Shown: positions 11,842 to 63,808 of the stretch, in pieces
How positions within the stretch are numbered: position 1 is the first letter of the stretch
How the letters are laid out: each line of letters begins with the position of its first letter
Origin: Rhodobacteraceae bacterium HLUCCO07
GTDB lineage: Bacteria > Pseudomonadota > Alphaproteobacteria > Rhodobacterales > Rhodobacteraceae
NCBI GenBank assembly: GCA_001314705.1
Contig: LJSU01000019.1
Span: 248,001 to 312,000 of the forward strand
Length of the DNA: 64,000 bases
Direction of reading: 5' to 3'
Made by a program: the position numbers and the translations under genes
The notes under the pieces: model-generated
The model's database searches: none
What the model was told of the DNA's origin: nothing
What the model saw: the letters and a program-made list of their open reading frames with translations, nothing else

Positions 11842-12546
11842 ATGTCAAACTATTTCAAAGCCTTATCCGTTCACCTTCTGACCGCAACCGGCGCCGTTTT
11901 CGCGATGCTTGCGATGCTGGCGGCGGCGGGGCACGACTGGGATCTGATGTTCCTGTGGCTGGTGGTGGCCTTTGCAGTCGACGGAATAGACGGGCCGTTG
12001 GCGCGCAAGTATCATGTGAAACACTATGCGGACGAGTTCGACGGGGTGCTTCTGGACCTGATCATCGATTATCTGACCTATGTGTTCATTCCGGCCTATG
12101 CGCTCTTTGAATCGGGGCTGCTGGGAGGCTGGACAGGCTGGGCTGCGATCATCGTGATCACCTATGCGTCGGCGCTTTACTTTTCCGATACGCGCATGAA
12201 AACAAAGGACAATTCCTTTTCCGGATTTCCCGGTTGCTGGAACATGCTGGCGATCGTGATCTTCGCGCTGAAACCGGATTTCTGGATCTGTCTCACCCTG
12301 ATCGTCGTGCTGGCCGCAAGCATGTTCACATCGCTCAAGTTCGTTCACCCGGTGCGCACCAAGAGGTGGAAAAACGTAACGTTACCAATGGCTTTCGCCT
12401 GGACCTCCTTTGCCGGCTGGGCGGCCTGGGTGGATTTTCACCCCGAGAGCTGGGCCAGTTGGGGGTTGATCGTGACAAGCATTTACCTGCTGTTCGCGGG
12501 GATCGCGCAGCAGCTCATTCCCGAGCGCAACGCCCCACAGGGTTAA
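11842..12546 (+). CDS. pcs: phosphatidylcholine synthase Pcs
   Basis: Pcs condenses choline with CDP-diacylglycerol to make phosphatidylcholine directly, a pathway typical of Alphaproteobacteria. The 234-residue membrane protein has about eight hydrophobic segments. It carries the Pcs-specific form of the CDP-alcohol phosphotransferase signature, DG-x2-AR-x12-G-x3-D-x3-D, with Asp50, Gly51, Ala54, Arg55, Gly68, Asp72 and Asp76. The x12 spacing, rather than x8, separates Pcs from phosphatidylserine or phosphatidylglycerophosphate synthases. It sits 17 bases after xerC. Its TAA stop lies inside the first GTTAAC of repeat copy B. Confidence 0.93.
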   Translation: MSNYFKALSVHLLTATGAVFAMLAMLAAAGHDWDLMFLWLVVAFAVDGIDGPLARKYHVKHYADEFDGVLLDLIIDYLTYVFIPAYALFESGLLGGWTGWAAIIVITYASALYFSDTRMKTKDNSFSGFPGCWNMLAIVIFALKPDFWICLTLIVVLAASMFTSLKFVHPVRTKRWKNVTLPMAFAWTSFAGWAAWVDFHPESWASWGLIVTSIYLLFAGIAQQLIPERNAPQG

Positions 12547-12649
12547 CACGGGTTTTCGGCGAAAAATCGGGGGGTGATATGTGTATGACTCCCGGCTGCC
12601 GCCCGGCTGCCGGGCAAATGCGGCGACGGGCGGGCAAAGTCAGGTTAAC
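12542..12649 (+). repeat. GTTAAC-bounded 108-bp intergenic repeat, copy B
   Basis: GTTAAC at 12542-12547 and 12644-12649. The core has TCGGGGGGTGATAT and two 11-base CCGGCTGCC units followed by GGGCAAA. It fills the gap between the convergent pcs and ogt genes. The right flank reads GCGGCGCGCGG and then meets the ogt stop codon. It has exactly the same length as copy A. Confidence 0.78.
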
Positions 12650-12667
12650 GCGGCGCGCGGTGCGGGC

Positions 12668-24652: not shown

Positions 24653-25750
24653 TCAGGCATTGAACAGGAAGTGCAGGACATCGCCGTCCTTGACCTCGTA
24701 AGCCTTTCCTTCGACACGCATTTTTCCCGCTTCCTTCGCCCCCTGTTCGCCACCGCAGGCGACGAAATCGTCATAAGCGATGGTTTCGGCGCGGATGAAG
24801 CCGCGTTCGAAGTCGCCGTGGATGACGCCGGCGGCCTGCGGGGCCAGCGTGCCGCGGCGGATCGTCCAGGCGCGGGCCTCTTTCGGGCCAACGGTAAAAT
24901 AGGTCTCGAGGTTCAACAATTCGTAACCGGCCCGAATGAGCCGGTCGAGGCCGGGCTCGGCGAGGCCCATCTCTTCGAGAAACATCTCCGCCTCCTCGGC
25001 GTCGAGCTGGGCGATCTCCTCCTCGATCCGCGCGGAAATCACGACAGATGCATTGCCCTGCGCCTCGGCCATTTCGGCCACGGCGCGGGAATGGGCGTTG
25101 CCGTTCGCGGCCTCGTCCTCGGCCACGTTGCAGACATAGAGCACCGGCTTCGTGGTCAGGAGCTGGAGCATCTTCCAGGCCTTCGCATCCTCGGGATCGA
25201 CCGCGACGGTGCGCGCGGGCTTGCCCTCTTCCAACGCGGCAAGCGCCTGTTTCAAAAGGCGTTCCTGCTGCACCGCCTCCTTGTCGCCGCCCTTGAGCTT
25301 GCGCTGGAGGTTGGCGCGGCGTTTCTCGATGCTGTCGATATCGGCGAGCATCAGCTCGGTCTCGATCGTCTCGGCATCGGCGACCGGATCGACCCGTCCC
25401 TCGACATGGGTGACGTCGCCATCCTCGAAACAGCGCAGCACATGCGCGATGGCGTCTACCTCGCGGATATTGGCGAGAAACTGGTTGCCCAGCCCCTCGC
25501 CCCTGGAGGCGCCCTTGACGAGGCCGGCGATGTCGACGAAGGTCATGCGGGTGGGGATGGTTTGCCGCGACCTGGCGATCTCGGCCAGTTTTTCAAGCCG
25601 CGCGTCGGGCACGGCGACCTCGCCCACGTTGGGTTCGATCGTGCAGAACGGGAAATTCGCCGCCTGCGCCGCGGCGGTTCTTGTCAAGGCATTGAAAAGC
25701 GTGGATTTTCCCACGTTCGGCAAACCCACGATACCCATCTTGAAACCCAT
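24653..25750 (-). CDS. ychF: redox-regulated ATPase YchF (Obg-like)
   Basis: 365-residue member of the Obg/YchF P-loop family, which prefers ATP, binds ribosomes and has been linked to oxidative-stress control. G1 is GLPNVGKST near residues 9-17, G3 is [10 protein letters not shown], and the C-terminal TGS-like domain ends [12 protein letters not shown] through LFNA. I chose the ATG complementing 25748-25750 (MGFKMGIVG), the usual start; 13 extra upstream codons are not conserved. The gene ends beside a GTTAAC repeat end. Confidence 0.95.
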
Positions 25751-25832
25751 CTGACGCCCCTTTTCCTGCCAGCGTTGCGCGCGGCGCATCTAGGGGCCGG
25801 GGGGGTGCGGGGTCAACCCCTGCGAGGCAAGG

Positions 25833-25942
25833 GTTAACACCGCTTTCGGCGTGAATTCGGGGGGGGTGACATCCGGCTGCCACCCGGCTGCCACCCGGCT
25901 GCCGGGCAAACCGTCACGCCCCCCTGCCCCACGCTGGTTAAC
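25833..25942 (+). repeat. GTTAAC-bounded 110-bp intergenic repeat, copy C
   Basis: GTTAAC at 25833-25838 and 25937-25942. The core has a G-run followed by TGACAT, then three perfect tandem units beginning CCGGCTGCC at 25873, 25884 and 25895 (11-base period), and GGGCAAA. It lies in the divergent region between ychF and the DUF1737 gene, so it is not restricted to 3' ends. It is the clearest copy. Confidence 0.8.
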
Positions 25943-26058: not shown

Positions 26059-26250
26059 GTGAGCGAGATCGTCGAGTACCGGATCATTTCCGCGATCTAC
26101 ACCAGGGCGGACGCGGACGAGCTTCACGACAAGTTGTCGAACCAGGTGAACGAATTCATCGAGTTGGGATGGCAACCGCACGGGTCGATCTCGTCTGTCG
26201 TGCTGGAGAACGCGATCATCGTGATGCAGCCCATCGTCAGGAAACGGTGA
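26059..26250 (+). CDS. DUF1737 small protein
   Basis: 63 residues from a GTG start, which has an excellent AGGGAGGAAG ribosome-binding site 6 bases upstream; an upstream ATG at 25954 lacks one. The protein (SEIVEYRIISAIYT ... LGWQPHGSI) is a compact alpha/beta domain of the DUF1737 type with a conserved GWxPxG-like turn. The function is unknown. It is monocistronic between repeat copy C and trpA. Confidence 0.8.
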   Translation: MSEIVEYRIISAIYTRADADELHDKLSNQVNEFIELGWQPHGSISSVVLENAIIVMQPIVRKR

Positions 26251-26526
26251 CGGGAGAACGGGGGACCTGCTGTTACAACCCTTGCCTCACTGCAAAAGGC
26301 CGTCAGGGCGTGCTGCGGCGAAATGGTTTTGGCGGAGGCCGGTCAGAGGGCATGCGCCCGCCAGGGTGGACGAGCACATGCCCGGGCCACGAGCGGCCCG
26401 GGCGGAATGCACTCGATCGAATGCAACCTCAGCCAGCCGAATTCCGCCCGACGCAATCGTGATTGATTTCCCCGTCGATTTTCTGCAAACCGCCCGGAAC
26501 GGACAGCATCCCCGGGGAGAGCCAGC
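26251..26526 (+). promoter_or_regulatory. trpA upstream region with strong inverted repeat
   Basis: A 276-base gap before trpA. It contains a perfect 9-bp inverted repeat, GCCCGGGCC (26380-26388) and GGCCCGGGC (26395-26403), loop ACGAGC, with no T-run after it. It could end the DUF1737 transcript or act in the trpA leader. I found no leader peptide with tandem Trp codons, so classical attenuation is not supported. Confidence 0.4.
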
Positions 26527-63668: not shown

Positions 63669-63777
63669 GTTAAAGGTCGGATGCCATCGGCCGGGCGGGG
63701 GGTGATCTGCGGCTGCTGGACGGCTGCCATGCGTGCACCGCCGCAGTGCGGCATTCGCGACGCCGAATCCGGTTAAC
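63669..63777 (+). repeat. GTTAAC-bounded 109-bp intergenic repeat, copy D
   Basis: GTTAAA at 63669-63674 and GTTAAC at 63772-63777. The G-run GGGGGGTGATCT and two diverged CGGCTGC units are kept; the second half has diverged more. Left boundary carries one change in the hexamer. Lies between two minus-strand genes; the right flank GCCGCGCGCGG matches copy B. Confidence 0.65.
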
Positions 63778-63808
63778 GCCGCGCGCGGTGGTGGTGATTT
63801 TCATCATA

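Follow-up and report, generated by a model that had tools for sequence, protein, structure and literature searches.

KOPS are among the closest described relatives of the elements reported here, which are likewise oriented along the replichores, G-rich on the presumed leading strand and dispersed over the chromosome. KOPS, however, are 8-bp words that occur singly and number in the hundreds, whereas the elements are framed arrays of ~108 bp with a minimum spacing, and reading by the FtsK gamma winged helix does not fit, as this helix is identical across different array codes. CTCF sites offer a eukaryotic analogy in being long, modular, oriented and conserved in position, but the elements are bacterial and change their unit between genera. 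Tandem units one helical turn apart (here a 7-bp module plus a 4-bp linker) also occur in ParR-parC and in the 11-bp direct repeats of OmpR/PhoB, and the repeat geometry fits a ParR/RHH or OmpR-type site, which a ribbon-helix-helix or winged-helix protein would bind; the ParR-parC and OmpR/PhoB repeats are single-locus centromeres or promoter sites, whereas the elements number ~100 chromosome-wide and avoid promoters. MraZ binds tandem boxes with a period similar to that of the arrays, and its operator (three to four boxes, ~10-bp period) has as many boxes per site, but mraZ occurs without detected arrays, and arrays without a MraZ match (see below). Intergenic repeats of ~100 bp in ~100 copies include REP/BIME, MITE and RIME (the Rhizobium intergenic element); the elements differ from these in conserved sites and polarity and in having no trace of transposition and no hairpin core, their consensus fold of −5.7 kcal/mol being far from the stable hairpin palindrome of REP/BIME and the occupancy of congener sites far from the insertion polymorphism of MITEs. 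Dispersed single copies and the lack of a hairpin consensus speak against attC (folded R''/L''-L'/R' sites with cassettes and intI), and there are no matches to Rfam structured RNA families at gathering score in the window. A preliminary description of this DNA knew of no named repeat with these features, and none of the repeat classes tested here matches. We found no description of the elements in the open-access literature; one may exist elsewhere.

The window, the whole 64-kb stretch analysed, derives from a member of the Rhodobacteraceae (Paracoccaceae in current NCBI taxonomy) and contains four copies, all at the positions given in the preliminary description (Table 1). Copy 1 is correctly placed there, but its strand is the minus strand, and a good alignment with the others is obtained only once it is reversed. 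GTTAAC occurs ten times in the window (2.5 expected), and seven of these occurrences belong to elements. The focal element, copy 3, is flanked by the divergent genes ychF (24653–25789, minus strand) and 26061–26462 (plus strand). The gene at 11842–12546 ends in a TAA stop codon that lies within the left GTTAAC of copy 2, and the first module slot of this copy is occupied by module A at the orthologous site in Aquicoccus porphyridii.

Table 1. Positions of the four elements and their parts in the window.
Feature	Position	Strand	Remarks
Copy 1 (AAA)	411–519	−	Downstream of ruvB; orthologous element in A. porphyridii
Left GTTAAC	514–519	−	
G-run	485–490	−	
T of TGA	484	−	
Modules, all CCGGCTG	472–478, 461–467, 450–456	−	
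Right GTTAAC	411–416	−	
Copy 2 (CAA)	12542–12649	+	Occupies whole convergent gap
Left GTTAAC	12542–12547	+	
G-run	12569–12574	+	
T of TGA	12575	+	
Module GTGTATG	12581–12587	+	
Modules CCGGCTG	12592–12598, 12603–12609	+	
Right GTTAAC	12644–12649	+	
Right outer arm, GCGGCGCGCG	12650–12659	+	From alignment of copies
Copy 3 (AAA), focal element	25833–25942	+	Orthologous AAA element in A. porphyridii
Left GTTAAC	25833–25838	+	
G-run	25859–25866	+	
T of TGA	25867	+	
Modules CCGGCTG	25873–25879, 25884–25890, 25895–25901	+	
Right GTTAAC	25937–25942	+	
Copy 4 (AAB)	63669–63777	+	From alignment and module mapping
Left GTTAAA	63669–63674	+	
G-run	63697–63702	+	
T of TGA	63703	+	
Module GCGGCTG	63709–63715	+	
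Module ACGGCTG	63720–63726	+	
Module GCGTGCA	63731–63737	+	Followed by CCGCCGCAGTGCGGC
Right GTTAAC	63772–63777	+	
Right outer arm, GCCGCGCGCG	63778–63787	+	From alignment of copies

Read 5′ to 3′ on the G-rich strand, an element comprises GTTAAC, an arm of ~25 bp, GGGGGGTGA, three bases and then the module array, in which three 7-bp modules (A, CCGGCTG; B, GCGTGCA; C, GCGTATG) are separated by 4-base linkers in an 11-bp register. The third module is often followed by CCGGG, and an arm of ~30 bp leads to the right GTTAAC, itself often followed by CGCGCG or GCGGCGCGCG. The left GTTAAC starts 33–34 bp before the T of TGA and the right GTTAAC 69 bp after it. What had been noted as CGGCTGCC units are these 11-bp-spaced modules, of three types, and the length near 108 bp proposed for the family agrees with most copies being 108–109 bp. 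Its scale had been understated: a profile built from the sequences of 18 copies finds ~113 elements in the 3.43-Mb genome at E≤0.01 (best E 4e-24), not a few. A genome-wide search for the frame GTTAAM-N70-100-GTTAAC gave 60 and 58 matches per strand (each element scoring on both strands) and the reversed control 8 and 6.

Module slots lie 8, 19 and 30 bp after the T of TGA, and among 85 copies they are filled, almost without exception, by GGCTG, GTGCA or GTATG; slot 2 is GGCTG in 81. The architectures are AAA (29 copies), AAB (22), CAA (16), BAA (8) and a few others, and there is coupling within the array, CAT following TGA in 24 of 29 AAA arrays but in none of the 22 AAB arrays. Modules of one array agree while its linkers are unlike each other, which argues against a recent origin of the arrays by tandem duplication. 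The GCGTGCA in slot 3 of AAB elements is followed by the near-palindrome CCGCCGCANTGCGGC (e.g. window 63738–63752). CACCGCGCGGTG-like palindromes are frequent in the outer arms (e.g. window 12650–12659 and 63778–63787), at a distance of about one helical turn from GTTAAC, and in two other genomes (G011 and G088) a similar motif sits inside the left arm; these palindromes are likely a second binding site.

All 85 copies examined are intergenic under a simple ORF model, and the fixed-size intergenic family is real. Gene context was scored in stretches of the genome picked around elements, with gaps of at least 100 bp (n=485) as background. Convergent gaps are enriched (34 of 82 elements versus 84 of 485 background gaps; Fisher p = 3e-6) and divergent gaps depleted (10 of 82 versus 139 of 485; Fisher p = 0.0016), and several elements fill entire gaps of 118–140 bp, with GTTAAC giving the stop codon. 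The elements are also kept apart: the minimum spacing is 6.2 kb, and none of 76 gaps between elements is below 6 kb where 15.1 are expected, a count as low as this being reached in none of 5000 simulations. A genome of another genus with the same modules (G088) has 98 elements and one such gap where 12.9 are expected.

Positive GC skew marks the leading strand, and polarity is read here from skew. In 73 of 83 elements, local skew is positive on the strand that has the G-run. When skew is corrected for transcription, using third codon positions averaged over both gene strands, 59 of 68 elements agree (p = 4e-10), and 24 of 30 do so in convergent gaps. Elements in tandem gaps show no preference for gene direction (17 along it, 21 opposite), which makes this a polarity of replication, not of transcription. 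Runs of like orientation are also seen in G088, where elements are mostly plus on the largest contig and another contig has 13 minus and 2 plus, and in two genomes with the GTCGG code described below (G287 and G053), where the runs are less clean and the polarity is weaker. Replichore polarity and minimum spacing, together with the exchangeable modules and the family-wide change of unit, are additions to the preliminary description.

Two congeners, A. porphyridii L1 8-17 (G002) and the MAG S24.Bin137 (G001), carry as many copies, which places the window in Aquicoccus. We compared our genome with 1.18 Mb of A. porphyridii, counting a site as testable when both flanks were matched (flank identity about 80–93%), and found an element between the matching flanks at 38 of 38 testable sites. 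Most of the A. porphyridii stretches were picked around its own elements, and the stretches of our genome likewise; in the unbiased part, the first 400 kb of the largest A. porphyridii contig, eight of eight sites are occupied. Insertion polymorphism, which had been suggested as a check, is thus not seen with this different species of the same genus, and by synteny the copies are not mobile. The earlier alternative of a mobile or protein-bound unit accordingly loses its first half, while the second probably holds. In the 38 ortholog pairs the GTTAAC boxes, GGGGTGA/G-run and module cores are about 0.8–1.0 identical, the arms about 0.55–0.8, the linkers 0.45–0.63 and the flanks about 0.76, a pattern of change that reads as a footprint with exact spacing. 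Modules are exchangeable between orthologous elements, slot 1 having changed in several pairs (e.g. BAA to CAA, CAA to BAA and CAA to AAA). AAB and AAC elements with a tested ortholog kept their class in every pair, and AAB elements look like a stable subclass.

One genome per genus was then searched with GGTTAAC-N86-106-GGTTAAC, which revealed frames of ~110 bp around four-unit arrays of other words. The frame search alone yields some false positives; one locus (L219 in G232) that matched consists of GTTAACCTTAAC-rich tandem repeats unrelated to the arrays. The pattern (GTCGG N6)x4 is present in 33 of 290 genera, with up to 122 matches per genome, and its reversed control is empty except where it spells the module GGCTG (34 matches in our genome, 41 in G229) and for a few stray matches. 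(GTRYR N6)x4 is found in more genera, with GTGCAC, GTACAC, GTGTAC, GTGCAT or GTATGG; where the word is palindromic, as some are, the reversed control is not empty. Array counts are lower bounds, each pattern covering one code. Among ~285 other Alphaproteobacteria searched, the GTCGG array is absent except for simple minisatellite-like matches in two genomes. Arrays in other genera are often bounded by GTTAAC and GTCGG arrays are often without it, so the frame and the array may be separable. One framed array (L220:1501-1614 in G162) has a 12-bp period with four copies of CGGTATGCCTGG, and in G011 the units of an array are spaced 11-12-11, so that some lineages depart from a strict 11-bp register. 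GTCGG-type arrays in G189 (L261:1501-1538) and G279 (L262:1501-1538) appear, by our reading of the frame, to lie within the valS coding sequence at about the same place, whereas the element of our genome lies 219–258 bp away from the end of the matching gene.

The places of the elements are also shared across genera. At 18 of 33 testable loci of other genera (those with an ortholog of the neighbouring gene in our sampled stretches, 1–11 loci per genus) our genome has an element at the same gene end, where ~8% is expected from the density of elements in those stretches (binomial p = 6e-12); orientation is the same in 15 of the 18. Three further loci (L235, L207 and L211) adjoin one of our elements and missed the matching rule. 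One example is the BAA element at C10:120728, which corresponds to GTCGG x4 in G053 (matched on both flanks) and in G169. Others are the CAA elements at C10:80425, common to G279 with GTGCAC units (both flanks), and at C10:65649, common to G186 with ATCGG x4. Sites shared in this way under other words must be older than these genera, with the units replaced at many of them; the code has changed and the places have been kept. The same places with a genus-specific central word suggest a system of protein-binding sites, as yet undescribed, that spans the genome.

We consider it close to an even chance (a probability of roughly 0.45) that the elements are dispersed, oriented sites bound by a protein that evolves together with them and serves to organise or segregate the chromosome. 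Units at helical-turn spacing, near-invariant modules with free linkers, the fixed frame and the coupling within arrays point to a cooperative complex on one face of the DNA, and position, dispersal and orientation favour a chromosome-level role over one at single genes. The centre would be a four-unit array on one helix face, with one unit per 11 bp, and its reader a DNA-binding protein that is oligomeric or has several domains, while the GTTAAC end boxes, with or without CGCGCG, would bind a second and more conserved partner that closes a complex of ~108 bp. Some 100 such complexes, at least ~6 kb apart and mostly oriented along the replichore, would form landmarks or polar barriers serving chromosome organisation or segregation. 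The specificity of the protein would drift between genera and the sites would follow, so that the unit is replaced but places, register and frame are retained.

A protein that could read the arrays was sought among several candidates and not found. FtsK is the obvious one because the sites are polar, but its gamma recognition helix is identical across different codes and in genomes without detected arrays, and a helix that does not vary cannot account for the code. Most genomes have MraZ, but it is unsupported as the reader: mraZ is also found in G003 and G005, which have no detected arrays, and array-bearing G160 and G204 (the latter with 53 array matches) have no MraZ match, although a divergent MraZ could escape this search. 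No array is present upstream of mraZ in A. porphyridii. Among ~1850 sampled proteins, part of the genome, we found no DNA-binding protein with four internal repeats.

Other explanations account for some of these observations. A fork barrier, a Chi-type hotspot of repair or recombination, or a mark of self-DNA that serves uptake or defence and has a dialect in each lineage would match the replichore polarity, the dispersal and the lineage-specific words. Known marks of the polar or uptake type are short words that recur hundreds to thousands of times, and a frame of 108 bp that occupies a fixed site every ~30 kb is too rare and too elaborate to be one. There are also no clear viral or plasmid copies: blastn with the own-type consensus finds none in PLSDB, and the search of viral contigs finds no own-type copies and one contig with GTCGG units. 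This 30-kb contig (IMGVR_UViG_3300037791_000022) has a GTCGGTAT array (L300:7481-7507) and could represent the end of a prophage or host DNA assigned to a virus in error. We regard a mark of this kind as unlikely. It is quite unlikely, too, that the elements are transcription boundaries, in which a protein-bound roadblock or insulator would end transcription between mostly convergent genes. The excess in convergent gaps, the elements that fill a gap and provide its stop codon, and the absence of an intrinsic terminator-like site within copy 2 are as such boundaries would predict, but orientation tracks replication skew and not gene direction, ten elements lie in divergent gaps, the even spacing and density of one per ~30 kb would not be expected of terminators, and the majority of gene ends have no element. 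Avoidance of promoters alone would also yield the convergent bias.

The fixed size, the imperfect inverted ends around GTTAAC, the many copies and the array inside valS in two genomes recall a non-autonomous mobile or mosaic repeat of the MITE, BIME or RIME type, perhaps now immobile and homogenised by gene conversion. This is improbable, given that no empty site appeared in the ortholog tests and that sites are common to several genera; no target duplication is seen, with no empty site from which to read one. Linkers that differ while modules agree within one array also argue against recent duplicates, and the arms diverge between orthologs with their spacing unchanged. Least probable by far is a family of small RNAs or 3′-UTR RNA elements. 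Short inverted repeats do occur in the arms of some copies (TTTTCGGCGAAAA; CCGCCGCANTGCGGC), but the consensus fold, which had been proposed as a check, is weak and almost without covariation (two pairs with double changes), there is no Rfam match in the window, and the elements have no link to the direction of transcription.

Sites for a chromosome-organising protein are thus the reading we prefer. On a wider and more tentative analysis, which is possible but on balance somewhat doubtful, the elements would be an ancient Rhodobacteraceae set of ~100 oriented, spaced arrays of four 11-bp units, often framed by GTTAAC, with a dedicated and fast-changing chromosome-organising reader, all sites of a genome being recoded together while their places stay fixed. 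Such a system could be likened to a bacterial CTCF with a PRDM9-like drift of the recognised word. If this is true, a whole bacterial family would have a chromosome-wide, oriented and evenly dispersed class of site with its own reader, ranking beside parS, matS, KOPS or CTCF sites. The different words at the same places would represent a natural experiment on the joint change of specificity in a regulator and ~100 sites. The proposal is directly testable, since the sites are many, are located to the single base and occur in bacteria that can be cultured.
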